Below are positions 396 through 20,606 of a stretch of 20,606 nt of DNA, piece by piece. The DNA is from a virus. Both the position numbers and the translations under genes were made by a program. The first letter of the stretch is position 1. Every line of letters starts with the position of its first letter. Where the stretch lies: IMG/VR virus record IMGVR_UViG_3300038654_000006, positions 1 through 20,606 of that record; one strand, given 5' to 3'. The notes under the pieces are model-generated. The model saw nothing but the letters and a program-made list of their open reading frames with translations. It was not told where the DNA came from and did not search any database.

Positions 396-1031
396 TGGGA
401 ACTCAGTAATCTCATTACGACGACTCCAAAAATAGCTAACATCAGCAACAGCCCCATAACTCGCTGTAGCACCATTATCTACAAAGTAGCCCTCTGTGTC
501 TGTTTTTTCCCCAGTAGTCATAGCCCCATTACGGAACAACGCTCCGACGATGGCAGTACCAGGGAAATCTTCACCGCCTAAGTCATAGGCCCCTGCTGGA
601 ATACTGACACCGTAGCTCGCTGTACCTTGATCTGTGGCCAAAACCATTGTGCCCGTCCAACCACCTGCGGGCACTGTAATAGTTAGATGGTCATCAGTTC
701 TGTCCAGCAATAGTCTGTCTGGCGTTACTTTATATACTGGCCTGTAGAAGCTAGTGGACTGTGCTGCGTTTACCTCGTTACCTGACTGATCTAACACCAA
801 TCCAACGAGGTCGCCATCAGATGTGACTGCCGTCGTGCCTGCTGAGTCTTGAAATAATGACTGTATGCTGAGAGCAATGGGTAGTGAAACGTAGAGTGCG
901 CCTGCTTCGCTAGCACCGAACATTGTGTCTATTATGCCCTGCAATGACGATTCTATGCCTGCGACCCACGTTAGACGAACAGAAGTTGCTTGTCGGTCAG
1001 TAGTGGATAAGTCTATAGGTGTTTCTGGCAT
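1..1031 (-). CDS. Tail-fibre-like adhesin with 24-residue leucine-rich repeats (C-terminus off the window)
   Basis: An open minus-strand frame begins at ATG 1031-1029 (MPETPIDLSTTD) after a good ribosome site (GGAGG, spacing 6) and runs without a stop off position 1, about 343 codons. Residues 1-100 are of unknown fold. Around residues 75-95 a phrase like DQSGNEVNAAQSTSFYRP resembles the start of LamG-like domains in phage fibres. From about residue 210 the protein becomes six tandem 24-residue units built on the pattern FPLIDTSSGTNF...aW..C.sLTS. This is the BspA/DUF285 type of leucine-rich repeat, found in surface and phage adhesion proteins. Each unit has one Trp and one Cys at fixed positions. 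The gene follows a small virion protein and gp14 on the same strand, consistent with a virion surface or host-recognition role. The function is inferred from repeat type and context; the true C-terminus is not seen. Confidence 0.8.
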   Translation of the reverse strand, partial: MPETPIDLSTTDRQATSVRLTWVAGIESSLQGIIDTMFGASEAGALYVSLPIALSIQSLFQDSAGTTAVTSDGDLVGLVLDQSGNEVNAAQSTSFYRPVYKVTPDRLLLDRTDDHLTITVPAGGWTGTMVLATDQGTASYGVSIPAGAYDLGGEDFPGTAIVGALFRNGAMTTGEKTDTEGYFVDNGATASYGAVADVSYFWSRRNEITEFPLIDTSSGTNFSNAWYDCGSLTSFPLIDTSSGTNFEKTWQYCDSLTSFSLIDTSSGTNFEKTWSGCSSLTSFPQIDASSGTRFYQAWRSCSGLTSFPLIDTSSGTSFYGAWQSCSGLTSFPLIDTSSGTDFS

Positions 1032-1096
1032 TATGCCTCCGTATTAATAAATATTGCGTAATTATAGGCACAAAACGTCCTGTACTATGTATTAAG

Positions 1097-1121
1097 AACC
1101 GGCCGATCGTGGCCGGTTTTT
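1097..1121. terminator. Strong GC-rich hairpin, probable terminator between minus-strand genes
   Basis: AACCGGCC (1097-1104), loop GATCGT, GGCCGGTT (1111-1118) form an 8-bp stem. The U-run is better in the plus direction (TTTTTA) than in the minus direction (TTCTTAAT). The flanking genes are both on the minus strand, so it would end transcripts from the small gene at 1156-1557 and may also stop antisense transcription. Confidence 0.65.
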
Positions 1122-1155
1122 ATACTTCCTTGTTACTCGACCTAGTTTTAAAACA

Positions 1156-1557
1156 TTAAGCAATTGTAATGCTTGGAGTGATGTCGTACGTGTCGTTTTC
1201 GTTAAACGTATACGGACCAGCAGAATCAACTTCAATAGTTAAAATACGCGGAGTAGATCCGGTAGTTACAATCGCATAACCTTGAACCGAACCTGTCCAG
1301 CCACCTGAACCAGTAGTAAAAGTCTGCAAAGCATAGCTTCCTGTGTCGTTAGTTACTGACCATGATGCATCAGCAAGGGTAATGCGAGCATAACCAGTAC
1401 CGGTTGGCTCTGTTAGTGTAGACGCCGTGATAGTTTCGGCTGGAGAACTGTTAGTAAACAATAACAGTTCTGTTTCAGTGCCGCGGTCGGCATCTGCGTT
1501 TACTAGTACTAAGTTTGCGATTAACGTTTCGCCTTCGTTGGGGGTAAATCCTGCCAT
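1156..1557 (-). CDS. Small probable virion protein, 133 aa
   Basis: The frame begins MAGFTPNEGETLIANLVLVNAD and has a clear ribosome site (AAAGGAG, about 8 bases before the ATG). It lies 66 bp downstream of gp14 and has its own late promoter box at 1592-1599. The protein is Thr/Ser/Gly-rich with alternating beta-like segments and no signal peptide or membrane helix. A GGWTGS motif near residue 85 also occurs as GGWTGT in the adhesin encoded just downstream, suggesting a shared beta-sandwich type or partnership. I do not recognise a named family. Position and composition point to a minor structural or fibre-associated protein; this is inference. Confidence 0.75.
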   Translation of the reverse strand: MAGFTPNEGETLIANLVLVNADADRGTETELLLFTNSSPAETITASTLTEPTGTGYARITLADASWSVTNDTGSYALQTFTTGSGGWTGSVQGYAIVTTGSTPRILTIEVDSAGPYTFNENDTYDITPSITIA

Positions 1558-1591
1558 AATAATTCTCCTTTAGCGTTTATTATATTACTTA

Positions 1592-1599
1592 TATTTATC
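1592..1599 (-). promoter_or_regulatory. T4-type late promoter box (GATAAATA)
   Basis: Minus-strand GATAAATA lies about 35 bp before the start of the 133-aa gene, with AAAGGAG between. One mismatch to the T4 late consensus TATAAATA. Confidence 0.6.
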
Positions 1600-1623
1600 A
1601 TTTATTGTTAGATAGTTCTTATG

Positions 1624-2868
1624 TCACGGTGATAAGTCTGTAAATGATATTACTGCATTTGAGTTAATTTCTACGTTTATATTGCCGACTATTGAATTAG
1701 TGTAATTGCCAACTAAAATATCATCACCTAAGCCCGACAGAGCAACGGAATCTTCAGCATACGAATTTTTAAACCTAACATCGTCATACATTTTGGCCCA
1801 TCGCACTCCGTCAAACTGAAACAATCGAACAGGATAAAAGTCAGTTCGTAAAAAGTAATCACCTTCTGAATTGTTTATTGGAAATTGATTGCCAGTTCCG
1901 AATGGCAATCCATTAGGCGGAGTTCCGTCTGTAATTAAGTAGCCTGTATATCCTAATTTAATAGGATCTGCAAACTCAACATCAGCAGAGTTAACAGTAC
2001 TATCATCTGCGTTAACAATAGCTACACTGCCGTCTGGGTTAACTGCTACTGTATAAAAGTGTGATACTTCGTAACCCCGGTACGGAACTTCAGCTACTGC
2101 TTCGTTGATAATTCCTTGGTTAATTTGCATTTCACGATCATATGTACTTAATAAATCTTTTAAAGTGTTTTCCTCGTACACAGCCCAGTCTGCTTCGGGA
2201 GGAGTTGTAGAAGTTTCAACTAATGCTTCATATAAAATCCCTTCATAACGAATTACTTGCCCGGGCTGATATGTTAACGTACTATCCCAATCGCCTTCGA
2301 AGATATCTTCGTTTGTGGGAACATCTAAGATATCTTTAAATTCTTGTCCGTTAACTATTTGTTTCAATTTTAAACGGTATAAATGAGGATACCAAGTATG
2401 TGAAAAACCTTCTGCTGCCCTGTTTACATCTTCAACTACATAAAAGCGTTTTAATGAAGTTGTAAAATTATTTTGGGCATATTCATCAGTTAAGTGAGGC
2501 AGTTCGATTACATCGCCACTCATTATTTTTCGACCTAATGTCTTAACAGAACTATTAATGTGAATGTTTATAAACAAAGTATCATTAGCAAGGAATAATC
2601 CAAACTGAGACAAGTCGAAATCTAAATCTTGAACATTGTAAATTGTGCGCATTCTATAAATATCAGCATCATATTTACGATCTCTGTTTTCTAGGAATAA
2701 CAAATCTTGTATTTGTGTTTCGTCTTTTATAATACTACCGTCGTCTGTACCGATATACTTATGTACATGAATATCAGTTCCGCCGACTGTAAATTGTTCT
2801 AAAATTTGTTTATCGAGAAAATGATAGTCGTTTCCTCTCTCCGGTTTATATAAGGATAATCGTGGCAT
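1624..2868 (-). CDS. 14: Neck protein gp14
   Basis: The 414-aa protein opens MPRLSLYKPERGNDYHFLD and contains QDLLFLENRDRKYDADIYRMR and FDLSQFGLFL, phrases I recognise from gp14 of T4-like cyanophages. T4 gp14 (about 256 aa) joins gp13 at the head neck, where the tail attaches. This version is much longer. Extra C-terminal material includes a W...Y.PG..V.Y.G..Y.A.....P....W stretch (about 192-233) resembling carbohydrate-binding type 5/12 folds. A second module near 330-370 reads GDYFLRTDFYPVRLFQFDG.RW. The ribosome site is AAAGGTG before ATG 2868. It is divergent from gp13 at 2934, whereas in T4 genes 13 and 14 are adjacent and co-directional. The assignment is confident for the N-terminal half; the role of the extra modules is inferred. 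Confidence 0.85.
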   Translation of the reverse strand: MPRLSLYKPERGNDYHFLDKQILEQFTVGGTDIHVHKYIGTDDGSIIKDETQIQDLLFLENRDRKYDADIYRMRTIYNVQDLDFDLSQFGLFLANDTLFINIHINSSVKTLGRKIMSGDVIELPHLTDEYAQNNFTTSLKRFYVVEDVNRAAEGFSHTWYPHLYRLKLKQIVNGQEFKDILDVPTNEDIFEGDWDSTLTYQPGQVIRYEGILYEALVETSTTPPEADWAVYEENTLKDLLSTYDREMQINQGIINEAVAEVPYRGYEVSHFYTVAVNPDGSVAIVNADDSTVNSADVEFADPIKLGYTGYLITDGTPPNGLPFGTGNQFPINNSEGDYFLRTDFYPVRLFQFDGVRWAKMYDDVRFKNSYAEDSVALSGLGDDILVGNYTNSIVGNINVEINSNAVISFTDLSP

Positions 2869-2893
2869 ATTTATTCACCTTTGCTTTAATACA

Positions 2894-2901
2894 TATTTAT
2901 C
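2894..2901 (-). promoter_or_regulatory. Late promoter box for gp14 (GATAAATA)
   Basis: Minus-strand GATAAATA lies 26 bp upstream of the gp14 start, with AAAGGTG between. It is back to back with the plus-strand box at 2908-2915. Confidence 0.6.
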
Positions 2902-2907
2902 GTAATT

Positions 2908-2915
2908 AATAAATA
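2908..2915 (+). promoter_or_regulatory. Late promoter box for gp13 (AATAAATA)
   Basis: AATAAATA is followed by GGAG at 2923-2926 and the gp13 ATG at 2934. By T4 geometry transcription would start near 2921, leaving a very short leader that still includes the ribosome site. Confidence 0.55.
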
Positions 2916-2933
2916 CAATAGCGGAGATTAACA

Positions 2934-3926
2934 ATGACTGATTTAGCAACACAGAAACAAGAAGTATATGATTACGTCTACAATATGTTAGGCGGCGGAA
3001 TGGTTGATGTAGAATTAGATCCCATTCATTATGCAACAGCATTGAATAAAGCATTAACACGCTTTAGACAACGAAGTTCAAATGCAGTTGAAGAGTCTTA
3101 TTTGTTCTTAACATTAATAGAAAATCAAAATGAATACATTATGCCTAAAGAAGTTATCGAAGTAAGACAACTATATAGACGTAGTGTCGGCAGTAAAGGG
3201 GTAGCAGGTAGTTCAAACTCTAGCGGCCCGGTGTTTTCTACAAGTAAAATAGTTACACTAACAACTAATCAAACGTTTGAAGTAGGGTACAATCTTGCGT
3301 CTGTAACTAGTGTAATTGTAACAGTTAATGGTACTGCAAGAGGCGACTTTACTGAAGACTACGGTACTAGAACAATTACTTTTACTACCCCGCTTAATGT
3401 TGGAGAAGTTGTTAACATAAAATTGTATACTGAAACTTTTACAAGTGGCTCTGAAATTGAACCATTTAATGCAGCGTTTACTAATACTTACTTATTGACA
3501 GGAACATCAAAGGTCGGCGGCCTGGCAACATACGAATTGTTTGCTGGATATCAAGAACTAGCAGGAAGAATGTTTGGTTCATTTATTGAATTTAAGTGGA
3601 ATCCGCCAACTAAAAAGCTAACAATTTTACAAAAGCCAAGAGGCACAGAAGAAGTATTAGTTTGGGCTTACAACTACAGACCAGATGACCAATTACTTAA
3701 TGACTATCTATCTATTCAATGGATTAAAGATTTTACTTTAGCATCATGTAAGTTTATGTTAGGTGAAGCAAGGTCGAAATTTGCAACCATTGCAGGTCCA
3801 CAAGGCGGCAGCACACTTAACGGCGACGCATTAAAAGCAGAAGCACAAGCAGAAATGGAAAAACTTGAAATTGAAGTAATGCAGCAAGTAGCCGGCGGTG
3901 GAGGCTATAGCTTCTTAATTGGCTAG
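2934..3926 (+). CDS. 13: Neck protein gp13
   Basis: The protein is 330 aa, close to T4 gp13 (about 309 aa). The opening TDLATQKQEVYDYVYNMLGG and the segment ALNKALTRFRQRSSNAVEES match gp13 of marine T4-like phages. gp13 sits on the portal-proximal neck and with gp14 seals the filled head and makes the tail-joining surface. A beta-rich insertion of about 60 residues (roughly 100-165, FSTSKIVTLTTNQTFEVGYN onward) breaks the helical family pattern. After it the conserved C-terminal part resumes (FIEFKWNPPTKKLTI, then LVWAYNYRPDD). The start is chosen from GGAG eight bases upstream. It is followed 37 bp later by the 207-aa gene in the same direction. Confidence 0.85.
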   Translation: MTDLATQKQEVYDYVYNMLGGGMVDVELDPIHYATALNKALTRFRQRSSNAVEESYLFLTLIENQNEYIMPKEVIEVRQLYRRSVGSKGVAGSSNSSGPVFSTSKIVTLTTNQTFEVGYNLASVTSVIVTVNGTARGDFTEDYGTRTITFTTPLNVGEVVNIKLYTETFTSGSEIEPFNAAFTNTYLLTGTSKVGGLATYELFAGYQELAGRMFGSFIEFKWNPPTKKLTILQKPRGTEEVLVWAYNYRPDDQLLNDYLSIQWIKDFTLASCKFMLGEARSKFATIAGPQGGSTLNGDALKAEAQAEMEKLEIEVMQQVAGGGGYSFLIG

Positions 3927-3963
3927 GTTTATTATTAATACGTATAACTAAAATAGGAAAATT

Positions 3964-4587
3964 ATGAGACTTAGAGAATTGTTAAAAGAAGGCAAAAATG
4001 TGCCTTGTATTGTAGTAGACGTACAACCTGAATATGCAGATTATTCAACAATTGATATGACTGAATTATGTCAATTTTTAGCTAACCAAAAAGCACCACT
4101 GCTAATGTTTGTTAATGCTGATGAAACTGGCATGACAGGCGACAATGTTGAGCATGATATATTTCCATTCTGGGAAGAACATTTTGAAAATGCTAACTTA
4201 GACTTTTATGAAGACGGCCTTCCCAACATGACATTTAACGATAAAGGTTATGGATACTTTAGATCATGGATGGATTCGGGTTTAGATGAAGCAATAATAA
4301 TTAAAACTATTAGAGAAATGTATCATCAGAAAGTCAACGATTCTAGAGAATTATTCAACGGCGACGAATCTGAAGATTATGAAGAAAAAATGGCATTGCT
4401 TGGAGTCACTGACGAAGATTTATTTAGTGATCCATTGTCTATAAACTGGACAAGTGTAGGACAACTTAAAAAACTTTCAGGCGCATATATAATGGGCGGC
4501 GGAAGAAACGAATGTTTACGAGAAGTAGAACTTCTAATGAATGCATTTAATATTAAGTATAAGCGTATAGAAAAATTTGTTTACTAG
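3964..4587 (+). CDS. Uncharacterised 207-aa phage protein, possibly isochorismatase-like fold
   Basis: The start has AGGAAAATT before ATG 3964. The protein is acidic in its middle third and soluble. Residues 13-22 (VPCIVVDVQP) resemble the first strand and catalytic Asp-x-Gln of isochorismatase-type cysteine hydrolases. Near the C-terminus GGGRNECLREVELLMNAF resembles the nucleophile region of that fold (Gly-rich turn, then Cys on a helix). A Lys in EAIIIKTIREMY could complete a D-K-C triad. The similarity is to the general pattern only, and I cannot name a family. It sits between gp13 and a nucleotide kinase, where T4 itself has no obvious counterpart. It may be a moron or metabolic accessory gene; function unproven. 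Confidence 0.7.
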   Translation: MRLRELLKEGKNVPCIVVDVQPEYADYSTIDMTELCQFLANQKAPLLMFVNADETGMTGDNVEHDIFPFWEEHFENANLDFYEDGLPNMTFNDKGYGYFRSWMDSGLDEAIIIKTIREMYHQKVNDSRELFNGDESEDYEEKMALLGVTDEDLFSDPLSINWTSVGQLKKLSGAYIMGGGRNECLREVELLMNAFNIKYKRIEKFVY

Positions 4588-4648
4588 AATTAGTTATTAC
4601 ATTGACTGCAACTCGTTCTATTATGAAATAATATTGATCTGATTGAGG

Positions 4649-4677
4649 TTGACAAAACTCTCTTTCTATAGTAGAAT
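4649..4677 (+). promoter_or_regulatory. Host sigma70-type (early) promoter before the nucleotide kinase
   Basis: A perfect -35 TTGACA (4649-4654), a 17-bp spacer and a -10 TAGAAT (4672-4677) lie directly before the kinase ribosome site. It is the only convincing host-type promoter I saw in the window; the other promoters look late-type. Confidence 0.7.
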
Positions 4678-4697
4678 TAGTGCTATGGAGATCGTTA

Positions 4698-5213
4698 ATG
4701 CAAAAACAAAAACAACTAAAACTATTAATTATAGGATATGGCCGACACGGCAAAGATACAGTATGTGAACTGTTACGCGACATACACGGTTACACATTTG
4801 AGTCTAGTAGTAAATTCTGTTCAAAACAGTTTATATTCAATAACCTAAAAGACAAATATAATTATAATTCAGAAAATGAATGCTTTGCTGATCGTCATAA
4901 TCACAGAGAAGAATGGTACAATGCCATATGTGAGTATAACAAAGATGATGCTGCAACGTTAGGATTTGAAATATTTAAAGAATATTCTATATACTGTGGC
5001 CTAAGAAATAAAGCTGAATTCCACGCAATGAAAAACCAAGGCATATTTGACTATGTAATATGGGTTGATCGTTCTGATCACCTTCCCCCCGAAAGCAAAG
5101 ATAGCATGACATTAGAACAATGGATGGCAGATTATACTATTGATAATAATAGTAGTCTGGAAATGCTACAAAAAAACGTAAATAATTTAATTTGCCATTT
5201 GCAGGATAAATAA
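4698..5213 (+). CDS. P-loop nucleotide kinase, putative dNMP kinase (T4 gp1-like)
   Basis: An upstream in-frame GTG at 4680 exists, but ATG 4698 has GGAG at a spacing of 7, so the 171-aa form is preferred. Residues 8-21 (KLLIIGYGRHGKDT) form a Walker A loop of the GxxxxGKD(T) type used by T4 gene 1 deoxynucleoside monophosphate kinase. Later IFDYVIWVDRS (about 137-147) fits the strand with substrate- or product-binding residues near the end of such kinases. It is shorter than T4 gp1 (241 aa). Such enzymes phosphorylate dNMPs to feed phage DNA synthesis. An early promoter fits that role, although the gene sits among late structural genes. Family level is confident; substrate specificity is inferred. 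Confidence 0.7.
   Translation: MQKQKQLKLLIIGYGRHGKDTVCELLRDIHGYTFESSSKFCSKQFIFNNLKDKYNYNSENECFADRHNHREEWYNAICEYNKDDAATLGFEIFKEYSIYCGLRNKAEFHAMKNQGIFDYVIWVDRSDHLPPESKDSMTLEQWMADYTIDNNSSLEMLQKNVNNLICHLQDK
5205..5212 (+). promoter_or_regulatory. Possible late promoter box overlapping the kinase stop codon
   Basis: GATAAATA includes the first two bases of the TAA stop (5211-5213). It may be a distal late promoter for gp18, or simply the codons Asp-Lys-stop. Confidence 0.35.
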
Positions 5214-9789: not shown

Positions 9790-10944
9790 ATGAGTAAACT
9801 TAATGGATTTTTAGACAACGTCGGCACAGCATCGGGCGATATAATTGAAACCGTTGCTGGCGAAGGACAGAATTTTGTACAAGGATTATTAAATCCTGGT
9901 GGAAGTCTTCGTGACTTTCAACACGCTGCCCGCTTATATATTGACAATGCCTTTAGGTTAGCACCTAAAGTTAAATTTCTTTATTTTGTTAATTTTACAT
10001 TATCAGACGAAGCATTACGGTTTGCACCTACGTTGGGCGGAAAGCACAGAGGTGTACTTAACATGTTAGTTAAGAGTGTTGACTTACCACAATACACTGC
10101 AACTGTTGAAACTAGAAATCAATATAACAGAAAAAAGAATACACAATCAAGTATACAATATACTGATGTTGCTATAAAAATGCACGACGACAATGCCGGT
10201 GTCACGACTCAGCTACTTGAAGCTTATTATCGATACTATTTTCAAGACCCAAATGTTGACACTACTGCTAGTTTCAATCCGAGGGGAACTTATTCTGAAA
10301 ACAGAACAGTAGTACCGCCCGAACCGCTTGGTAGTACCACTACTACACGGGAAAGAGCATTTCCTCGTTACGGTTTAGATAATGAAACTGCTACGCCGTT
10401 TTTTAAAGAAATAAAATTATACCAGTTCACAAGACAGTCTTATATGGAATACACATTAGTTAATCCTATAGTAGCTCAATGGGGCCACGACACAATGGAC
10501 CAAGCAGATAGCTCTGGTATAGCAGAAAACAGCTTAATATTAAAATACGAGTCAGTGTTATATAACGCCGGCCGAGTTTCAGAAGACGATCCGGCATTTT
10601 TTGCAGATACTCATTACGACAAAACCCTAAGTCCTTTGTCAGTTTTAGGTGGCGGTGTTGCAAACGTATTTGGAGGCGGCGGTATTCTAGACGGTGCTAG
10701 CACAACGTTAGAAAACATTGGCCAGGGAACTTTCGCAGGCGCAGGCATTGCTGGCATTGCCGCTGCTAATACTATAAGAAACCTCGATGCTCTGTCAGCT
10801 GATAACTTAAGAGCAGAAGGTCTAAATATAGTAAGAAGCGTTTCGTCACCAAGTAATGGTGGATTAGCTGGAGTCTTTGTTCCAAAGAATAACGGTAATT
10901 CCGGCGATGATAATACAACTACTACAGTGCAAGGGTTAGGTTAA
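9790..10944 (+). CDS. Tail-tube-fold structural protein (gp48/gp54-like candidate)
   Basis: A 384-aa protein I recognise as a type conserved in marine T4-like phages, though without a settled name. Residues 55-70 (LAPKVKFLYFVNFTLSD) and VKSVDLPQYTATVETRNQYN (about 97-116) resemble tube and tube-initiator proteins. So does the later pattern FFKEIKLYQFTRQSYMEYTLVN followed by ENSLILKYESVLYNAGRV. A Gly/Ala-rich C-terminal region (about 290-384) is low-complexity. It lies right after gp19 and overlaps the next gene at TAATG. T4 gp54 and gp48 start and cap the tube at the baseplate; a similar adaptor role is the best guess. No Shine-Dalgarno is visible before ATG 9790, which is unusual among the neighbouring genes. 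Confidence 0.75.
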   Translation: MSKLNGFLDNVGTASGDIIETVAGEGQNFVQGLLNPGGSLRDFQHAARLYIDNAFRLAPKVKFLYFVNFTLSDEALRFAPTLGGKHRGVLNMLVKSVDLPQYTATVETRNQYNRKKNTQSSIQYTDVAIKMHDDNAGVTTQLLEAYYRYYFQDPNVDTTASFNPRGTYSENRTVVPPEPLGSTTTTRERAFPRYGLDNETATPFFKEIKLYQFTRQSYMEYTLVNPIVAQWGHDTMDQADSSGIAENSLILKYESVLYNAGRVSEDDPAFFADTHYDKTLSPLSVLGGGVANVFGGGGILDGASTTLENIGQGTFAGAGIAGIAAANTIRNLDALSADNLRAEGLNIVRSVSSPSNGGLAGVFVPKNNGNSGDDNTTTTVQGLG

Positions 10945-12971
10945 TGATTACACCAAAACAGACAACTAGAACTACAACAAAGACTTTCTTTGATAGTTAC
11001 TACGATAAAAAATTAGAATATCCAAGTAACGAAGTAGACGCAGTGGTGGGATTTTTTGAAAAGAGAGGCTTCTCAAAAGCTACTGCAATAAATGTATCAA
11101 CTGCAATTTTACAACAAGCTAAAATCGACAACGTAAAAGTATTTGTGTTATTGGACTCTCTTAAAGGATCGTCAGACGTACAGTTAAGTAGTTTGATTGC
11201 TGAAATTTTAAATTATAACAGAAGAAAGACTAGTAGTTTAGGTTATAAAGTGCCAACCGCAGCAAATGCAGTAGAATCAAGAAATATAGAAATAATTGAC
11301 AATACTCGGGCAAACACAATTGAAAGTAATAACGTAATTACTGTAACATCAACTGCTACATTTAACTACGAAGAAGTTATTGCCTCTAGCCGGTGCGATT
11401 TGTCGACAGCCTCTTATGATTCTGTAAGTTTTGATCCTAATCAAGTATTTCCGAACTGGTTCACCGCGCGTAGTGTGAACTTTAAACCTGACGGCACTAA
11501 GATGTACGTTCTAGGCAGATATGAAGAAGGCAGAGTTTACCAGTACACTATGTCGACAGCCTGGGACTTAAGTACTGCCTCCTATAACTCAGTAAGTTTG
11601 GGCTTCTCCGGGCAGGACTTTGCACCAAATTGTGTAAAATTCAAACCTGACGGTACTAAGATGTACATGGTAGGAGCCAGTACCGGCTCAGTTTACCAGT
11701 ACACCTTATCAACAGCTTGGGATATATCTACAGCATCTTATGACTCAGCCAGTTTTAGCATTTCGTCACAAGATGGCAGCCCAGTAAGCATAGAATTAAA
11801 ACCTGACGGCGCTAAGCTGTACGTTCTCGGCGGCTCTAACGACTCAGTTTACCAGTACACCTTGTCAACCGCATGGGACCTAGATACAGCCTCTTATGAC
11901 TCAGCCAGTTTTAGCATTTCGTCACAAGATGGTGGACCAGGGGACATGGCATTTGAACCTAGCGGTACTAAAATGTACATTACTGGAGCCGTAAACAGAT
12001 CAGTTTTCCAGTACAGCTTATCGACAGCATGGGACTTGAATACCGCTTCCTACAACTCTGTAAGTTTTGACGTTTCGTCACAAAATACCAACCCCAATGG
12101 CATAGCATTCAAACCCGACGGTTCCAAGATGTACGTGGTTGAAGCCAGTTACAAAGAGGTGTACCAGTACTCCATGTGTAGCGAACCAGTCTGGTGCGAT
12201 GTGTCTACAGCCTCTTACGACTCTGTAAGTTTTAGCGCGACGTCGCAAGACTCTTTTCCAACTGGCATAGCGTTTAAACCCGATGGTACGAAAATGTACA
12301 TGGGCGGGGTCGGCAGCAACACGGTCTACCAGTACACCTTGTCAACAGCCTGGGACGTAGATACTGTCTCTTATGACGATGTTAGTTTTGATGTTTCCTC
12401 GCAAGGTGGACCAAGGGCCATAGCATTCAAACCTGATGGCACTAAGATGTACATGGTCAGGGCCGGCTGGAACAAGGTCCACCAGTACAGCCTATCAACA
12501 GCCTGGGACCTGGATACCGCTTCCTACGATTCTGTAAGTTTTAGCGTGACGGGGCAAGACAACACTCCGTGGGACATAGCATTCAAACCTGATGGCACTA
12601 AGATGTACGTAATCGGGGTTCTAAGCGACAAGGTTCACCAGTACAGCCTATCAACAGCCTGGGACTTAAGTACTGCCTCTTACGACTCTGTAAGTTTTAG
12701 CGCGACGTCGCAAGACATTGCTCCGTGGGGTATAGCGTTTAAGCCAGATGGGACTAAGATATACGTGGTAGGGGGCGACAGCGACACGGTCTACCAGTAC
12801 TCCCTATCAACAACATGGGACGTGGCTACTGCCTCTTACGACTCAGTCAGTTTTGACGTGTCGTCGCAAGACGTCGCTCCAAATGGCGTAGCGTTTAAGC
12901 CTGATGGTACGAAGATGTACGTTATGGGCCTTGATAGCGACACGGTTTACCAATACTCCCTGTGTCAATAA
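10944..12971 (+). CDS. Virion structural domain fused to a ten-repeat propeller-like adhesin
   Basis: The start overlaps the previous stop (TAATG), implying translational coupling. Residues 1-115 (TTKTFFDSYYDKKLEYPSNEVDAV..., ILNYNRRKTSSLGYKV) match a small structural protein found alone in related marine T4-like phages. Residues 151-674 are ten repeats of about 51 aa with the pattern W-D-(L/V)-x-T-A-S-Y-D-S-V-S-F...FKPDGTKMYV.G....VYQYSLSTA. This is a typical beta-propeller blade series. Five repeats run from Cys151 to Cys412 and five more from Cys418 to Cys674, the penultimate residue. Only one other Cys (230) lies in the array. I infer two five-bladed propellers on a virion anchor, possibly for host binding. 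The repeat DNA is visibly richer in G+C than the N-terminal part. Confidence 0.85.
   Translation: MITPKQTTRTTTKTFFDSYYDKKLEYPSNEVDAVVGFFEKRGFSKATAINVSTAILQQAKIDNVKVFVLLDSLKGSSDVQLSSLIAEILNYNRRKTSSLGYKVPTAANAVESRNIEIIDNTRANTIESNNVITVTSTATFNYEEVIASSRCDLSTASYDSVSFDPNQVFPNWFTARSVNFKPDGTKMYVLGRYEEGRVYQYTMSTAWDLSTASYNSVSLGFSGQDFAPNCVKFKPDGTKMYMVGASTGSVYQYTLSTAWDISTASYDSASFSISSQDGSPVSIELKPDGAKLYVLGGSNDSVYQYTLSTAWDLDTASYDSASFSISSQDGGPGDMAFEPSGTKMYITGAVNRSVFQYSLSTAWDLNTASYNSVSFDVSSQNTNPNGIAFKPDGSKMYVVEASYKEVYQYSMCSEPVWCDVSTASYDSVSFSATSQDSFPTGIAFKPDGTKMYMGGVGSNTVYQYTLSTAWDVDTVSYDDVSFDVSSQGGPRAIAFKPDGTKMYMVRAGWNKVHQYSLSTAWDLDTASYDSVSFSVTGQDNTPWDIAFKPDGTKMYVIGVLSDKVHQYSLSTAWDLSTASYDSVSFSATSQDIAPWGIAFKPDGTKIYVVGGDSDTVYQYSLSTTWDVATASYDSVSFDVSSQDVAPNGVAFKPDGTKMYVMGLDSDTVYQYSLCQ
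11394..12968 (+). repeat. Ten coding repeats of about 153 bp in two blocks of five
   Basis: Each unit encodes one propeller blade. Block 1 spans 11394-12179 and block 2 spans 12195-12968. Each begins with TGC-GA(T) (Cys-Asp) and ends with a Cys codon after QYS(M/L). The hexapeptide linker SEPVW plus Cys418 joins them. Near-identical DNA words such as TTTAAACCTGACGG and CAGCCTGGGAC recur, so recombination between units is possible. Confidence 0.88.
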
Positions 12972-14715: not shown

Positions 14716-15309
14716 ATGGACATGAAAAAACTAATTAGTACAATGATCAATATTGACACTGATAAAAAGCAATTAAACGAATCGGCTATTAAAGAATGTG
14801 GTACTATGCCAATGGAAGCAGAAGGCATGGCAGCAGAAGGCCAGCCAGTAGAAACCGGCGATGTTGCTGCAAACTTTTCTTTAACAGCAGCAGGCGAAGG
14901 TAATGTTACAAGCTTATTGAACATTATGAAAAACGCAGGGCTAGCAAATGCAGAACCAGTGACACAAGATAGTATGGATATGCGCAGTTCAATGGAACGA
15001 TATCGTTCAGACGTTGATGAACCGGAAATGAGCATGGATGCTACTGGACCGGAAATGGACGTAGACACAAGTGCATTTGATGATCCAGATGCCGGCGTTA
15101 GTGACCAAGATTCTGAAGTAATTAGCATGAGTTCGGATGACGACCAATATAATGAAGAAAATATTACAGAGTGGTCGCAAGAGGATGCACATGAACTAGA
15201 AATGTTACACGGAAAAGTACAACGTTTTACTAACGGTTCTAGAAGTGCAGGTGATCAATTTGAAGACTACGTTGACAACAAATTTGACGGAATTGACAGT
15301 AACAGCTAG
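14716..15309 (+). CDS. Acidic conserved phage protein, 197 aa, unknown role
   Basis: AAAAGGAATAA precedes ATG 14716. The sequence is strongly acidic (runs such as DVDEPEMSMDATGPEMDVDT and DPDAGVSDQDSE), Met-rich and without aromatic clusters, so it is probably largely disordered. The segment NVTSLLNIMKNAGLANAEPV near residue 63 looks like a short ordered helix. The composition is like phage prohead core or internal proteins, but I see no specific match to T4 gp22, gp67 or gp68. It shares operon position and acidic character with the next gene. The two may be parts of a protein that is single in relatives. Confidence 0.7.
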   Translation: MDMKKLISTMINIDTDKKQLNESAIKECGTMPMEAEGMAAEGQPVETGDVAANFSLTAAGEGNVTSLLNIMKNAGLANAEPVTQDSMDMRSSMERYRSDVDEPEMSMDATGPEMDVDTSAFDDPDAGVSDQDSEVISMSSDDDQYNEENITEWSQEDAHELEMLHGKVQRFTNGSRSAGDQFEDYVDNKFDGIDSNS

Positions 15310-15327
15310 CATAATGACTTAGCTACT

Positions 15328-16554
15328 ATGAACAAAGATGAGCAGTTTGCTGCTATACATGACCTTGTACGTGATGCCGAAAGACAATCATCAGACGACG
15401 ACTACACTGATGATTCTATGCGTAAAGGCGAAATGGGTGAAGAATACAGTAATGAGCCGGATGAAGAGTATCAAGATCATAACTATATGACTAAGCAATT
15501 ATCAGGTGGCATTAATCGTCAGAAAAAGCAGTATGCTAAAGCACAAGACGGTGACAATGCAATGGCTGTGGAAACTCTAAGAAAAACACTTAGCTCTGCA
15601 CTATCAGAAAAGAAAAAAAAACCTAAAGCTGTAAAAGAAGCTAGAGAATCGGTTATTAATCCAGAAGCTATTAAAGACATAATGGCTTCACCTTCTTTTG
15701 ACGAAATGAAAATGAAAGCAATTGATTTGTTAAAAACATCAAGTACTTCACGAAATAAAAGAATGCAACTACAAATGAACGTTGAAAATACAAAGAATCC
15801 GCCAGCTCTAGAGAAGTTATTGTGGTATACACTGTTAGCAGGCGAAGGTCACTCAACAGTTGGCTCTAAGTATCAGAAACAATTTGCAAGTACAGATAAC
15901 CATAGAAAAACTACAGAAGCTAGAAAAAAGAAAGAAGTGTTTTCGGACGAAGTAGTAAAGAAGATTACAACATGGAAGGGCAGCTTCGACGAATTAAAAC
16001 AACACGTATTAGAGCTAATAGCTGACTCAAGTACTGTAGATAAGAAAAAAGCTTACTGGGTTAATTCAATTGAAGGTACTACTGACCAAACTGACTTAGT
16101 GGCAAAAGTACTTAATATTAAACTAGCAGGCGAACAGAACGCAGTAATTGCTGGCAGAAAAGGGTATTCTAACGCTAACTACAATAAGCAATTTGAAGAT
16201 ACTGACGATTATGGATCAGAAGCACTTCCTGTAGATAACAGGAAAATGTGGATAGCGTTACACCTTGCAGTGGCTGACCGAAACGCTGTAAAGGACGCAT
16301 TTGATAAAAATGAAATACAGTTTACTACAAATGGTGACGAGACGTATCAGCAAAAACAAGGGTTTGAAGTTAATGCAGCAGGTGACATAACTTCTAACTT
16401 TTGGGGTCAATCCGAAAATATTGAATCAATGAATCAAGAATTACAGAATTGGATAACTAGCAAAGTAGATTTCGATAATCTAGAAAAATTTGCTGTAGAT
16501 GCTGATGCAAGTGATAAAGATGATGACTTTGACCAACGAGACATTAGGCGGTAA
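15328..16554 (+). CDS. Conserved phage protein, 408 aa, probable internal or virion protein
   Basis: An acidic start (residues 1-50) is followed by a patch, NEPDEEYQDHNYMTKQLSGG then INRQKKQYAKAQDGDNAMAV, that I recall from hypothetical proteins of marine T4-like phages. The rest is charged and helical, with two similar stretches: ESVINPEAIKDIMASPSFDEMKMKAIDLL (about 106-135) and EVFSDEVVKKITTWKGSFDELKQHVLELI (about 203-231). They look like a duplicated helical domain, since each is followed by KK/NKR...W/N and LLAGE or KLAGEQ. There is no ribosome site before ATG 15328 and no alternative start. The stop is directly followed by the terminase region in the same frame. Confidence 0.7.
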   Translation: MNKDEQFAAIHDLVRDAERQSSDDDYTDDSMRKGEMGEEYSNEPDEEYQDHNYMTKQLSGGINRQKKQYAKAQDGDNAMAVETLRKTLSSALSEKKKKPKAVKEARESVINPEAIKDIMASPSFDEMKMKAIDLLKTSSTSRNKRMQLQMNVENTKNPPALEKLLWYTLLAGEGHSTVGSKYQKQFASTDNHRKTTEARKKKEVFSDEVVKKITTWKGSFDELKQHVLELIADSSTVDKKKAYWVNSIEGTTDQTDLVAKVLNIKLAGEQNAVIAGRKGYSNANYNKQFEDTDDYGSEALPVDNRKMWIALHLAVADRNAVKDAFDKNEIQFTTNGDETYQQKQGFEVNAAGDITSNFWGQSENIESMNQELQNWITSKVDFDNLEKFAVDADASDKDDDFDQRDIRR

Positions 16555-16641
16555 TGAACTATCTCTAAAAGCTTAGACGGTGTTTTAATAAAAAAAGCTA
16601 ATCAGCAAGAAACTTATACTGAACAGCAACTAAACGAATTA

Positions 16642-18180
16642 ATGAAGTGCATGGATCCCGATGATGGATACATGTACTTTGCTAAAAATTATGCTTACAT
16701 TCAGCATCCTGTCCAAGGTAAGTTACTTTTTAAACCTTACGAGTATCAAGAACGGCTGTTACACAGTTATCATAATCACAGATTTAACATTAATATGCTC
16801 CCCCGCCAAACCGGCAAGGCGCTAGCTCTTGATACTCCTATTCCTACTATCTCTGGATGGACTACTATGGGAGATGTTAAAGTAGGAGATGACATACTCG
16901 ACGCTAATGGTAACGCCACTAAGGTTACATTTGCGACAGAAGTAATGAACAATCATAACTGTTATCGTGTTGAATTTGACAACGGCGAAGTCATTACTGC
17001 CGACGAGGACCATTTGTGGAGTGTTAATACTGGTTTTTGGACAGCTGGTCCAAAAATACAAACAACTAAAGAGATAAAAAATTATATCAAATCTCACAAT
17101 ACATGTGTCTATATAGATGCTGCTAAAGAGATTACTACTGACGAAATAGAACTGCCTATAGATCCGTATGTCTTAGGATTTTGGTTAGGAGACGGCGAAA
17201 GTGCTGGCGCTCGATACACACAATGCATCGCCGACAATAAGGAAATAATTCCAGAAATAGTAAGTCGAGGTTTTGAAATATCTAAGTCTTATACAAACGG
17301 CGCTAGCGTGGTTAGCGAAAATAGAACAATTTACGGATTGCGCGGAAAATTAAACAAAAACAATTTATTAAAAAATAAACATATTCCTGAAATTTATATG
17401 AGGGCATCTGTTAACCAACGAGTTGAGTTAATTCAAGGACTAATGGATTCTGACGGATCAGTAGATCACCGCAACGGAAGATGTGAGTTTTATCAAAAGA
17501 ACAAGAATTTAATTGCCCAAGTGCAAGAACTACTGTCGTCTTTAGGAATCAAACATAGGTGCAGCTATAAAGTCATAGGGGATCAAAAGTATTACACTAT
17601 TGGATTTGCAACCACTGCACACACTATGTTTAAACTTACTAGAAAAGTAAAACTCCAACAGAAGTGTAAAGGTCATCAAAAAAATACTCGACACTATATA
17701 AAGAGGGTAACTGAAGCAGAGTCAGTACCGGTAAGGTGTATTCAAGTAGACAACAACGATCATCTATTTCTATGCGGGAAATCTATGATTCCCACGCACA
17801 ATACCACCTGTGCAGCAGTTTACTTAGCATGGTACGCGATGTTTCATTCTAACCAAACTATTCTGATTGCTGCTCACAAATATACAGGTGCACAGGAAAT
17901 TATGCAGCGTATACGATATGTGTATGAATTATGTCCTAATTATATTAGAGCAGGGGTTGTAAACTACAATAAAGGTTCTATTGAATTTGAAAACAGCTCA
18001 CGTATTGTTAGCTCAACTACAACTGGTAATACAGGACGTGGCTTGGCTATTTCTTTATTATACTGCTTAGACGGTGATACTACAGTACAAATTCGAAATA
18101 AGAAAACACTTGTTGAAGAAGATATCACATTAGCGCAATTGCACGCCCGATTATTAAATGTCGATCACGTTCTCACATGA
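16642..18180 (+). CDS. 17: Large terminase gp17, piece 1: N-extein, intein 1, middle extein, intein 2 N-half
   Basis: Packaging motor ATPase, first of at least three pieces. Residues 1-59 are N-extein, ending at the Walker A motif PRQTGK. Residues 60-387 are a complete intein. Residues 388-474 resume the ATPase (TTCAAVYLAWYAMF, adenine-pocket-like AAHKYTGA, VNYNKGSIEFENSS, GRGLAISLLY) up to the Walker B motif. Residues 475-512 (CLDGDTTVQI...) are the N-half of a second intein, then TGA. After splicing, the parts read RQTGK-TT like T4 gp17. ATG 16642 is the first standard start in frame, but it has no ribosome site. The codons before it (16558-16641) translate to a terminase-like sequence (ETYTEQQLNEL), so the real start is probably further upstream. 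Confidence 0.9.
   Translation: MKCMDPDDGYMYFAKNYAYIQHPVQGKLLFKPYEYQERLLHSYHNHRFNINMLPRQTGKALALDTPIPTISGWTTMGDVKVGDDILDANGNATKVTFATEVMNNHNCYRVEFDNGEVITADEDHLWSVNTGFWTAGPKIQTTKEIKNYIKSHNTCVYIDAAKEITTDEIELPIDPYVLGFWLGDGESAGARYTQCIADNKEIIPEIVSRGFEISKSYTNGASVVSENRTIYGLRGKLNKNNLLKNKHIPEIYMRASVNQRVELIQGLMDSDGSVDHRNGRCEFYQKNKNLIAQVQELLSSLGIKHRCSYKVIGDQKYYTIGFATTAHTMFKLTRKVKLQQKCKGHQKNTRHYIKRVTEAESVPVRCIQVDNNDHLFLCGKSMIPTHNTTCAAVYLAWYAMFHSNQTILIAAHKYTGAQEIMQRIRYVYELCPNYIRAGVVNYNKGSIEFENSSRIVSSTTTGNTGRGLAISLLYCLDGDTTVQIRNKKTLVEEDITLAQLHARLLNVDHVLT
16819..17802 (+). other. Intein 1: contiguous class 3 intein with LAGLIDADG endonuclease in Walker A
   Basis: 328 residues are inserted between Lys59 and Thr388 of the Walker A motif. 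The first residue is Ala (ALALDTPIPT), not Cys or Ser. Class 3 markers are all present: Trp126 two residues after the block B His (DHLW), Cys366 in block F (VRCIQV), and Thr385 just before the terminal His386-Asn387. The LAGLIDADG endonuclease motifs are LGFWLGDGES (178-187) and LIQGLMDSDGSV (263-274); both keep acidic residues, so it may be active. The +1 residue is Thr. The family rules (WCT triad, block F nucleophile) are established; activity here is inferred. Confidence 0.92.
18064..18177 (+). other. Intein 2 N-terminal half (38 aa) in the Walker B motif
   Basis: CLDGDTTVQIRNKKTLVEED is a standard block A with nucleophile Cys475. The frame stops at TGA 18178 before any block B, so the split is far earlier than in ordinary split inteins. 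The last residues, LLNVDHVLT, may belong to a vestige of the intein C-terminus rather than to the working N-half. Confidence 0.85.
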
Positions 18181-18195
18181 CGAGTTTGCATTTGT
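18173..18195 (+). other. Vestigial intein/extein junction (Ser-His then DEFAFV)
   Basis: TCA CAT GAC GAG TTT GCA TTT GT, read one frame off piece 1, encodes SH-DEFAFV. The intact junction in piece 2 (19402-19430) reads TCG CAT CAG TGC GAT GAA TTT GCA TTT GT. The vestige lacks exactly the Gln and Cys(+1) codons. All three base differences in the aligned codons are synonymous third positions. Confidence 0.75.
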
Positions 18196-18202
18196 ATAAA
18201 TA
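18195..18202 (+). promoter_or_regulatory. Perfect late promoter (TATAAATA) before the HNH gene
   Basis: TATAAATA ends only 4 bp before ATG 18207, so T4 geometry places the transcript start at the ATG. It begins at the last base of the extein vestige. Confidence 0.65.
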
Positions 18203-18206
18203 AAGT

Positions 18207-19097
18207 ATGGATAAACTAAAACAATTTAAACGTAGAAATCAGAGAAGAAACGCTCACTTATATTCTGATAAGTTACTGGAAAATATTGATTATATAACTT
18301 GCCCTGTTAGCAATGAAAGATTAAGTATGATAAAATCATCTTATATTGAACGAGTACTAGAAATGTCAATAACAGAATATGATAGACTATATCCTGGGGT
18401 TAGAGGCGTGTCGATGGCCCGCAAAACGAATATTAAAAAAGGATTACATCAAACTGATGCAACTGGATTAACAGCATACCAACGCTCGCAAGTAACTGCA
18501 CAAGTAACATTATCGCAACTAGACGAAAACGGTATAAGCGGCTATGCTAAAAAAGGTCAAAAGACTCGCGAAACACATATGAATAATATTGATCAATTTG
18601 GCCGGAATGGTTATTCTCAATTAGCAACTCTTGCAATCATAAAAGGCAATACAACTAAAGCTATGAAAGGTATTATATTAGATCCTTCTCAGAGAAATGA
18701 ATTTTATCGTTATAAAGCAGTAGTAACATATATAACTGAGCAACACCGATCAGAAATAACAGACGGGTATAAAACAGGACTTGCAGGAGTAAAAGGTGCA
18801 TATCATATAGATCATATATTTTCGATAATGCAAGGATATAAAGCCAGTGTTAGTCCGTTATTAATAGGAAGTAATTATAATTTACAAATGATGCCATGGA
18901 AAGAAAACCTGTCAAAACATGGATCGTGCAACATAACATTAACTGCTTTATTAGAAAAAGCTAATTATACGTTAGACAGATCACTGTACGAGTTTAAAAT
19001 ATTTGCTAATATGATTAATAATGATATGCAAATAGTAGCGCCTGTGAGTGGAGCTAAACTAGTAAAGGAATTTAATGAATCAAACATACGCAAGTAA
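18207..19097 (+). CDS. Free-standing HNH-like homing endonuclease between terminase pieces 1 and 2
   Basis: The 296-aa basic protein is not similar to terminase. The N-terminus has CPVSNERL then EYDRLYPG (about 32-64), like the DNA-binding front ends of phage HNH enzymes. Three motifs D-x-x-G-x-x-x-Y follow at 84-91, 106-113 and 129-136, spaced 22-23 residues: a likely tandem DNA-contact array. The nuclease core is YHIDHIFSIMQGY (His200, Asp202, His203), NLQMMPW (Asn225) and KENLSKH (Asn234, Lys237, His238), an H-N-N arrangement. There is no ribosome site, but a perfect late box lies 4 bp before the ATG. Its 3' end overlaps the start of terminase piece 2 by 23 bp, so the two are likely coupled. 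It presumably cuts intein-free terL alleles. Confidence 0.8.
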   Translation: MDKLKQFKRRNQRRNAHLYSDKLLENIDYITCPVSNERLSMIKSSYIERVLEMSITEYDRLYPGVRGVSMARKTNIKKGLHQTDATGLTAYQRSQVTAQVTLSQLDENGISGYAKKGQKTRETHMNNIDQFGRNGYSQLATLAIIKGNTTKAMKGIILDPSQRNEFYRYKAVVTYITEQHRSEITDGYKTGLAGVKGAYHIDHIFSIMQGYKASVSPLLIGSNYNLQMMPWKENLSKHGSCNITLTALLEKANYTLDRSLYEFKIFANMINNDMQIVAPVSGAKLVKEFNESNIRK

Positions 19098-19410
19098 TAC
19101 AGAATATGAAATCCTAACTCCCAACGGCTGGGAAGATTTTAATGGAATTTTCTTAAATGAAAACGTAAATAAAGACTCTTGCAAAATAACGTTCACTGAT
19201 AACTCGTTAATTATTGCAACGCTTGAACATCGATTCTTTATTAAAGACGTTGAAATTAAAGTAAATGATATTAAAGTAGGCGATAAGTTAGATTCTAACA
19301 ATACTACTAAAACTGTATCCAAATTAGACAAAACTATATTAGAAGATACATATGAAATTTTTAATGCAACTAATCATGTAATACTTGCAAATAAGATTAA
19401 TTCGCATCAG
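19075..19410 (+). other. Intein 2 C-terminal half (112 aa)
   Basis: It opens with YEILTPNGWEDFNGI, close in pattern to the C-half of the atypically split AceL-TerL intein. Block B is here: Thr49-x-x-His52 in IIATLEHRFF. The C-terminus is NSHQ followed by Cys113, so the final intein residue is Gln instead of the usual Asn. It must pair with the N-half at 18064-18177 for trans-splicing. Confidence 0.87.
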
Positions 19411-19812
19411 TGCGATGAATTTGCATTTGTTGCACCAAATATTGCTGAAGAGTTTTGGACTTCAATATCTCCAACTCTTGCAACTGGGGGTAGTGCTATT
19501 ATTACAAGTACTCCTAATTCAGATGAAGATACATTTGCTACTATTTGGAAAGATGCTGAAAAGAAATTTGATGAATATGGTAATGAACAAGAAATAGGAA
19601 TTAACGGGTTCCATTCTTTTACAGCAGCATGGGACGAACACCCAGATCGAGACGAAACGTGGAAGGCAGAAGAAATTGGACGCATTGGTACTGAGCGCTT
19701 CCGGCGTGAATATGGTTGTGTGCGCGCAAGCACAGTTATTACTCTGCAAGACATACACGGTAATATATTTGACTCACCAATAGGCAGCTTGTTTAACACT
19801 ATAGATAGATAA
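19075..19812 (+). CDS. 17: Large terminase gp17, piece 2: intein 2 C-half, ATPase segment, intein 3 N-half
   Basis: ATG 19075 lies inside the end of the HNH gene, with AAAGGAA at a spacing of 5-6. Residues 1-112 are the C-half of intein 2. Residues 113-214 continue the ATPase: CDEFAFVAPNIAEEFW (Walker B Asp114 and catalytic Glu115), AIITSTPNSDEDTF (coupling motif, like TTTPNG of T4), AAWDEHPDRDETW, and RIGTERFRREYG at the end of the ATPase domain. Residues 215-245 (CVRASTVITLQDIHGN...) form the N-half of a third intein, then TAA. By analogy with T4, the next extein residues should be Cys-Glu-Phe, leading to the nuclease domain. That part is not in this piece. Confidence 0.9.
   Translation: MNQTYASNTEYEILTPNGWEDFNGIFLNENVNKDSCKITFTDNSLIIATLEHRFFIKDVEIKVNDIKVGDKLDSNNTTKTVSKLDKTILEDTYEIFNATNHVILANKINSHQCDEFAFVAPNIAEEFWTSISPTLATGGSAIITSTPNSDEDTFATIWKDAEKKFDEYGNEQEIGINGFHSFTAAWDEHPDRDETWKAEEIGRIGTERFRREYGCVRASTVITLQDIHGNIFDSPIGSLFNTIDR
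19717..19809 (+). other. Intein 3 N-terminal half (31 aa)
   Basis: CVRASTVITLQDIHGNIFDS and the following IGSLF fit block A of an atypically split intein. Length and site resemble the 25-aa N-half of AceL-TerL. Cys215 is the nucleophile, and TAA follows 31 residues later. Confidence 0.8.
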
Positions 19813-19815
19813 ATA
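19808..19815 (+). promoter_or_regulatory. Late promoter box overlapping the piece 2 stop (GATAAATA)
   Basis: GATAAATA contains the TAA stop at 19810-19812. GGAG (19837-19840) and the next start follow. Confidence 0.55.
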
Positions 19816-19843
19816 ATTGCACAAGAACAATTTAACGGAGAAT

Positions 19844-20606
19844 ATGATGAGTGCTGCAATTTATATAGAATCAAAAATAGACAATAACCGATATTGTAAA
19901 ACAAATGGACAATTTACTAGGCATCTAAAACGGAATAAACTAACGTATCAAGATTACTACGAGAAGCATATCACTAAGACTAGCCCTAAGTGTAGCTGCG
20001 GCGAACGACTTTCATTTTATCAACACACAGAAACTTACGCTAATAGTTGCGGAGATCCTAAGTGTGTAGGAGTAAGTGCATCGGCTACAAGGTCAAACTG
20101 GACTACTACTAAAAAAGAGAATGATTCTGCCAACAAAAAGAAAGCAGCAGCAAAACGAACAGATGCACAAAAAGAACTCCAGCTTAAAAAGGCACAAGCC
20201 ACGTTTAAAGAGAAGTACGGAGTTGCGTGGGGTTCTAATTTAGAGAGCCAAAAAGAAAAGTCAAGACAAACTAAACTATCAAAATATGGTAACGAAAAAT
20301 ATAATAATAGTAAGCAGGCTAGATTAAGTAAAATAAACCGTTCTGTTCAAGAAAAGAATAAGAGCAACCAACAAAGGCGCGAAACTAACTTAGAAAGACA
20401 CGGAGTTGAAAATGTGTTGCTGTTAACATCAACACCTAGTAAGATCAATAAAGGCAACCGTTCTATTAAAGATTACGTGTTGCCTAGTGGCATAGTTGTT
20501 GGAGTACGCGGTCACGAACCGTTTGCATTAGATATATTATTTAATGAGCTAAACTATGACGAAACTGACATAATTATGCATAATGACTATTCGGACTATG
20601 CAATTG
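19844..20606 (+). CDS. Free-standing Vsr-like homing endonuclease (C-terminus off the window)
   Basis: The frame is open from ATG 19844 (or 19847, a better distance from GGAG) to the window end, 254 codons. Residues 50-74 have a four-Cys pattern (C-x-C, then Cys69 and Cys74), a probable zinc site. A Lys-rich linker follows, then KEKYGVAWGSNLESQKEKSR, SKYGNEKYNNSKQ and ERHGVENVLLLTS. These are repeats of the (K/R)(Y/H)G..N..(S/T) type common in phage endonucleases. The last part, VVGVRGHEPFALDILFNELN, resembles the first catalytic segment of the Vsr-like enzymes found with fractured, split-intein genes. The rest of the active site would be downstream. It sits exactly between the N-half of intein 3 and the expected third terminase piece. 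Confidence 0.8.
   Translation, partial: MMSAAIYIESKIDNNRYCKTNGQFTRHLKRNKLTYQDYYEKHITKTSPKCSCGERLSFYQHTETYANSCGDPKCVGVSASATRSNWTTTKKENDSANKKKAAAKRTDAQKELQLKKAQATFKEKYGVAWGSNLESQKEKSRQTKLSKYGNEKYNNSKQARLSKINRSVQEKNKSNQQRRETNLERHGVENVLLLTSTPSKINKGNRSIKDYVLPSGIVVGVRGHEPFALDILFNELNYDETDIIMHNDYSDYAI

Follow-up and report, generated by a model that had tools for sequence, protein, structure and literature searches.

Fractured genes, in which a split intein interrupts a conserved enzyme gene and a homing endonuclease gene (HEG) stands between the intein halves, are of the type of Dassa et al. 2009 (NAR 37:2560, as cited in PMC7891396, PMC6892783 and PMC8228797). Fractured genes, split inteins of the phage large terminase (TerL) and terminases as intein targets have all been published (PMC11766414, PMC7891396, PMC8228797), and the TerL inteins AceL-TerL, GOS-TerL and the consensus Cat-TerL (PMC11766414; PDB code: 6dsl) have N-halves of 25-37 aa and C-halves of about 104 aa. 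Here we describe a T4-like TerL at positions 16642-20606 of IMG/VR virus record IMGVR_UViG_3300038654_000006, whose entire 20,606 bases were analysed (the window) and whose assembly ends there. As far as the citing papers describe the Dassa-type genes, the window shares with them the conserved enzyme gene, the split intein, the endonuclease gene between the halves and the phage or metagenome setting; it differs in that a single gene carries a cis intein as well as two fractures in succession, and among its relatives L028 has three fractures and the TerL of Salicola phage SCTP-2 is dispersed.

We consider it about 90% probable that three inteins, each mobile on its own, entered this TerL at three conserved codons, a acting in cis and b and c in trans. 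Intein a would splice in cis, and inteins b and c, each with a short N-half and a long C-half, would leave TerL to be made as three polypeptides, E1-[a]-E2-Nb, Cb-E3-Nc and Cc-E4 (E, extein; N and C, intein halves), which two orthogonal trans-splicing reactions would join. The free-standing homing endonuclease in each split would spread its intein by cutting empty TerL alleles, and the first of them, HEG1, would probably repress itself via a half-site copy beside its late promoter. The open reading frames (ORFs) seen are 16642-18180, 18207-19097, 19075-19812 and 19817/19844-20605, the last one open, and the features are as follows.

16558..16818, plus strand: TerL extein 1, N-terminal, ending PRQTGK (first half of Walker A); ATG ORF from 16642, conserved frame up to about 16558 without ATG
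16819..17802, plus strand: intein a, contiguous, class 3-type, with a LAGLIDADG endonuclease domain; Ala1, W in ADEDHLW, C in PVRCIQ, T in IPTHN
17803..18063, plus strand: TerL extein 2 (TTCAAVYL...SLLY), from relatives' TerL and phrog_36964
18064..18180, plus strand: N-half of split intein b (N2; CLDGDTT..., 38 aa) and stop
18178..18196, plus strand: untranslated copy of the half-site in the downstream extein (TGACGAGTTTGCATTTGTA, resembling the codons for DEFAFV); position weight matrix score 31.1 bits against a null maximum of 18.5, conserved in 18 loci
18195..18202, plus strand: TATAAATA, late-promoter-like box before HEG1; consensus match, conserved in relatives
18207..19097, plus strand: HEG1, free-standing HNH/Endo VII-like putative homing endonuclease, 296 aa; HIDH...N...N motif, phrog_5104 (7e-17), alignment
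19075..19410, plus strand: C-half of split intein b (C2; 112 aa, ends SHQ), with its own start and an AAAGGAA ribosome-binding-like site
19411..19716, plus strand: TerL extein 3 (CDEFAFV...FRREYG), spanning Walker B and the rest of the ATPase domain
19717..19812, plus strand: N-half of split intein c (N3; CVRASTVITLQD..., 31 aa) and stop
19808..19815, plus strand: GATAAATA, box before HEG2
19844..20605, plus strand: HEG2, incomplete at the contig end, DUF7487/homing-endonuclease-like; complete relatives end in a PD...EVK-type motif

As to the host gene, phrog_36964 'terminase large subunit' matches both piece 1 (1.5e-109) and piece 2 (4.6e-26). The Walker A and Walker B parts lie in the window, while the nuclease part (Terminase_6C) is seen in relatives, the record ending first. 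The initial annotation, made from the sequence alone, had recognised this terminase and its three inteins, two of them split around free endonuclease genes; intein b is indeed complete in the window and c is represented by its N-half. It had also placed the gene start at 16642, which is probably too far downstream because the conserved SKSLDGVLIKKANQQETYTEQQLNEL stands in frame upstream of that position without an ATG. Within 16553-16642 the conserved TerL start is in frame but lacks an ATG, the one at 16553 being out of frame with it, which may reflect a non-ATG start or a small indel.

We compared 98 distinct TerL alleles in which all three sites can be read. In 65 of these, E1 to E4 follow one another without a single extra base at any junction, which shows the breaks to be insertions exact to the codon. 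Site a is RQTGK/TTCAA (the slash marks the insertion point) in the Walker A P-loop (GK/TT), site b is SLLY/CDEF in Walker B and site c is REYG/CEF between the ATPase and nuclease domains. We take the GK/T insertion of intein a to be the same kind of site as in DnaB. Besides the 65 empty alleles, 13 are occupied at b, nine at c, four at b and c, four at a and b, two at all three sites and one at a and c.

Intein a is contiguous, 328 aa long and carries a LAGLIDADG_3 domain. It had been thought to begin with Cys1; instead it has no nucleophile at residue 1 and contains the W-C-T triplet of class 3 inteins, at the positions defined in PMC7891396. It resembles the mycobacterial DnaB class 3 inteins (PDB codes: 6rix, 6bs8) in Ala1 and the W/C/T pattern, and matches such solved inteins over both ends (6rix, 8e-30; 76-residue block match). 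Unlike them, it has TerL as its host protein and includes a LAGLIDADG domain.

Intein b is atypically split, 38 + 112 aa, around HEG1. Its N-half begins with Cys1 in all b loci seen, and C2 ends SHQ/CDE in 39 of 42 cases, the terminal Gln being unusual. C2 matches the engineered intein CatC 6dsl (0.001) and is ~26% identical to C3, the C-half of intein c. By contrast, C3 of the relative L004 matches 6dsl, the engineered consensus TerL intein, at 3e-10, making site c the AceL/GOS-TerL type, and the C-extein of 6dsl likewise begins CE. Intein b, at LLY/CDEF and mostly ending in Gln, is a different allele from that type. The sizes at both sites are those of atypically split inteins (IntN about 25-39 aa, IntC about 104-114 aa), with 38 and 112 aa at b and, at c, 31 aa in the window and 114 aa in relatives. 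The halves showed no pairing of opposite charges. As in other fractured genes, the split intein halves lie on adjacent ORFs of one conserved gene, with the predicted free-standing endonuclease genes HEG1 and HEG2 in the breaks. A wider search found no free-standing HEG1 homologues outside TerL, only site-b copies, and the predicted HEG1 fold (pLDDT 71) had no PDB match; the predicted HEG2 fold (pLDDT 48) gave nothing usable.

N3 occupies the same junction as intein c of the relatives. A third piece, with a C-intein of about 100 residues followed by CEF and the nuclease domain, had been predicted, and relatives that share the double fracture do have it. The C-half of c and the last TerL piece occur in L002, L004, L005, L006, L030 and L033; at L004 7780-8880 a 114-aa C-intein precedes CEFLVFDETL and Terminase_6C. 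Both halves of intein c are found in L002, L005 and L030, and C3 ends SSN/CEF in 26 of 32 cases.

In the cultured Salicola phage SCTP-2 (MF360958.1), the TerL pieces lie at three distant loci on both strands.

429 kb, minus strand: gene 534, E1 and a split N-half at GK/
256 kb, plus strand: gene 267, C-half, E2 and N-half b
216-219 kb, minus strand: genes 225/224, HEG1 homologue (35% identity); C-half b and CDEFAFV...

Joined at the intein ends, these pieces make up 531 aa, which can be aligned over the full length to the intact TerL of L037 (47% identity); a further contiguous intein sits at PTIS/TGGK. Given that the pieces are in different places and orientations, neither read-through nor RNA splicing in cis can restore this TerL, and its dispersal offers strong but indirect evidence that the pieces would be trans-spliced. 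In the SCTP-2 stretches L191, L249 (2429-3322) and L250 (2857-3249) the pieces are annotated just as three 'terminase large subunit' genes.

These inteins also move. In L002 versus L010 the proportion of synonymous differences (pS) is 0.20 for N2, 0.31 for HEG1 and 0.17 for C2, against 0.65-0.83 for the exteins; L009 and L010 share 89 + 337 (426) identical intein bases with an extein pS of 0.48-0.68; and between the window and L030 intein a has a pS of 0.32 where the exteins reach at least 0.71. Since the inteins are far less diverged than the exteins in several pairs, they are mobile, by recent homing or transfer. Fracture is also reversible, because at site b of L009 and L020 the endonuclease has been lost and the intein halves are fused in frame; both linkers are palindromic, that of L020 being built from the end of the N-half. 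The initial annotation had called the arrangement exceptional. The double fracture with a cis intein is real, but double fractures also occur in L002, L005, their near-identical contigs, L031 and L032. In L031 all three sites are filled and HEG1 is truncated, and in L028 TerL lies in four ORFs (460-4700) with split inteins at all three sites. There, site a is split without an endonuclease, site b holds a 413-aa ORF without a Pfam match and site c a GIY-YIG gene. A second, intein-free TerL-like gene with the ATPase part only stands directly upstream of TerL in L007 (322-1128), L008 (3635-4441), L030 (3712-4491), L022 and L185; it stops near the site-c position (FRKEYECEI, then stop) and is absent in the window.

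An alternative is that this TerL is dead, a set of decayed inteins and endonucleases carried beside an intact copy elsewhere. Some neighbouring HEGs are indeed broken (L029, L031, and HEG2 in L002), and the additional upstream ATPase gene of L007, L008 and L030 might be taken for such a copy, yet that paralog ends with the ATPase domain, no second TerL ATPase was found in the 151-kb relative G001, and SCTP-2 is a cultured phage with scattered pieces only. In addition, the ratio of nonsynonymous to synonymous rates (dN/dS) of the intein halves lies at 0.04-0.4 in pairs with finite dS, apart from a short N3 pair at 0.59, and the exteins too are under purifying selection. We therefore regard a dead gene as very improbable, and the kept splice-junction residues, with intein-half dN/dS well below 1 in nearly all pairs, support the earlier view of an organised arrangement rather than decay. 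The pieces could instead act unligated, each as one subunit of a terminase made of several chains, comparable with the NrdA of Aeh1 that a HEG splits, and a ribonucleotide reductase gene in pieces without ligation is known (as cited in PMC10448857). However, breaks a and b interrupt the codons for Walker A and Walker B, each with matched intein halves and conserved catalytic ends that unligated pieces would not need, which makes this reading just as hard to credit. Finally, the window is one metagenomic record without reads, as an assembly artefact joining unrelated reads might be, but the same arrangement recurs at the same codons in several independent contigs of 16-151 kb. The assembly joins that the initial annotation had named as its refutation did not materialise, the same breaks being present in contigs from several metagenome datasets, and we give an artefact almost no credence. 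Group I or II introns were also considered and set aside, as 15000-20606 has no Rfam match.

Several observations weigh against the three-intein model. The identification of N3 rests on its position and on the relatives because it is only 31 aa long, and the record stops short of the third piece. In L002/L004 (6739-7716) a short duplication close to the catalytic end shifts the HEG2 frame, and homing may therefore have been lost there. Apart from weak PHROG matches, no family or fold could be matched to HEG1, and its box is so near its ATG that a transcript from it would be almost leaderless.

Between the N2 stop and HEG1, TGACGAGTTTGCATTTGTA, which copies the beginning of the downstream extein, runs into the TATAAATA box (18178-18202). 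With a matrix of extein starts, 11 of the tested loci have copies scoring 23-35 bits, compared with at most 18.5 in 40 random kilobases, and when 2.9 million viral contigs were searched for the pattern, all 18 stretches returned lay in this place at TerL site b. Across 18 loci the copy shows 1.97 differences per 18 versus 2.97 in the coding copy, and varies almost only at the wobble positions of DEFAFV (5/6 vs 1/12, p=0.004, shared ancestry not corrected). The copy is absent without HEG1 (L017, L025) or with another HEG (L022, L028), is decayed in L018, L029 and L031, whose HEG1 is broken or lost, and tracks the N-terminal half of HEG1, also in L168, L179, L182 and L184, whose C2 and C-terminal half of HEG1 belong to another type. 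At site c, HNH and GIY-YIG endonuclease genes are accompanied by a copy of the CEFLVFDE half-site, which lies about 85-111 bases inside the insertion and precedes an ATAAATA-like box; these copies score 17.6-28.7 bits in seven loci, five of which exceed the null maximum of 22 by >2 bits.

The late promoter boxes claimed for both endonuclease genes are present and that of HEG1 is conserved in relatives, but TATAAATA by itself is at chance level (1.46 expected per strand) and was rejected as stand-alone evidence, and the HEG2 box reads GATAAATA. Intron endonucleases of phage T4 have homing-site-like operators that overlap their late promoters, where I-TevI binds and represses (PMC2988022). The HEG1 layout is of this type, if its box is accepted on the consensus match and its homing site is assumed to be site b. 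It resembles the I-TevI/II/III operators in that a homing-site-like sequence overlaps the late promoter of the endonuclease gene; unlike them, it belongs to a split intein, copies the downstream half-site alone and is a predicted operator. Given that the half-site copy is conserved, wobble-patterned, found at two sites and similar to the I-TevI operators, we favour autorepression, and rate the chance that the copy is the operator of HEG1 at roughly even.

The half-site copy could also be a scar of endonuclease entry into the intein, without present function, a reading that would replace autorepression alone and that we consider possible though somewhat doubtful. Right-extein copies adjoin HEGs of different families, which is what a shared mode of capture would produce, and in site-b inteins without a HEG they are lost or decayed. 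Against a scar, the copy is kept in 18 distinct loci although nearby synonymous sites are near saturation, and it varies as described at wobble positions; it is also no more like its own E3 than other E3s, so recent conversion is unable to explain it. Autorepression thus remains our preferred account of the half-site copy. Its translation as DEFAFV was rejected, as the N2 stop overlaps it in most loci, and so was a HEG leader peptide, since the HEG frame is not open across it in the window and at three further loci, and the variation is off the wobble sites of that frame. Nor is the copy general to fractured genes: there is none in MIJ3 polB and none significant in gp41-1 loci (one 12-base match, L235 only). 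Upstream of HEG2, similarity to REYG/CEF is weak and below the null maximum.

Two side observations concern other genes. In gp41-1 loci L197, L204, L210 and L235, a GIY-YIG gene has TATAAATA 20 bases past the N-half stop; this box lies within an inverted repeat, GTAAGTTATACT...AGTATAACTTAC, that is conserved. Beside tail and neck genes, the window also encodes two proteins, at 3-1031 and 10944-12971, whose internal repeats are regular (TSFPLIDTSSGT... and AFKPDGTKMYVVG...).

Fractured genes and TerL split inteins are known, and multiple fracture, dispersed pieces and half-site copies are apparently new. In the literature searched, which did not extend to the primary papers Dassa 2009, Bachmann 2015 and Stevens 2018, we found no description of genes with at least two split inteins, of the dispersed SCTP-2 TerL or of half-site copies in split inteins. 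Tentatively, and at slightly less than even odds, we propose that TerL split-intein endonucleases control themselves through copied half-site operators, a rule that would be common to unrelated families at two sites, and that genes can be built from three or four polypeptides via mutually orthogonal split inteins, with pieces even many tens to hundreds of kilobases apart. The half-site copies provide a direct and cheap test of endonuclease target choice and regulation. Their variation, almost confined to wobble positions, is the mark that would be left by a protein ignoring such positions in its coding target. The allele series, from empty through contiguous, split and split with HEG to dispersed, suggests a stepwise reading of the origin and reversal of gene fracture. 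The split-intein pairs of such a gene must be orthogonal, because the middle piece (IntC-extein-IntN, the order used to cyclise peptides) would circularise on cross-reaction, and these phages may thus be a natural source of such pairs. An essential motor ligated from at least three chains would be the natural counterpart of engineered tandem trans-splicing.

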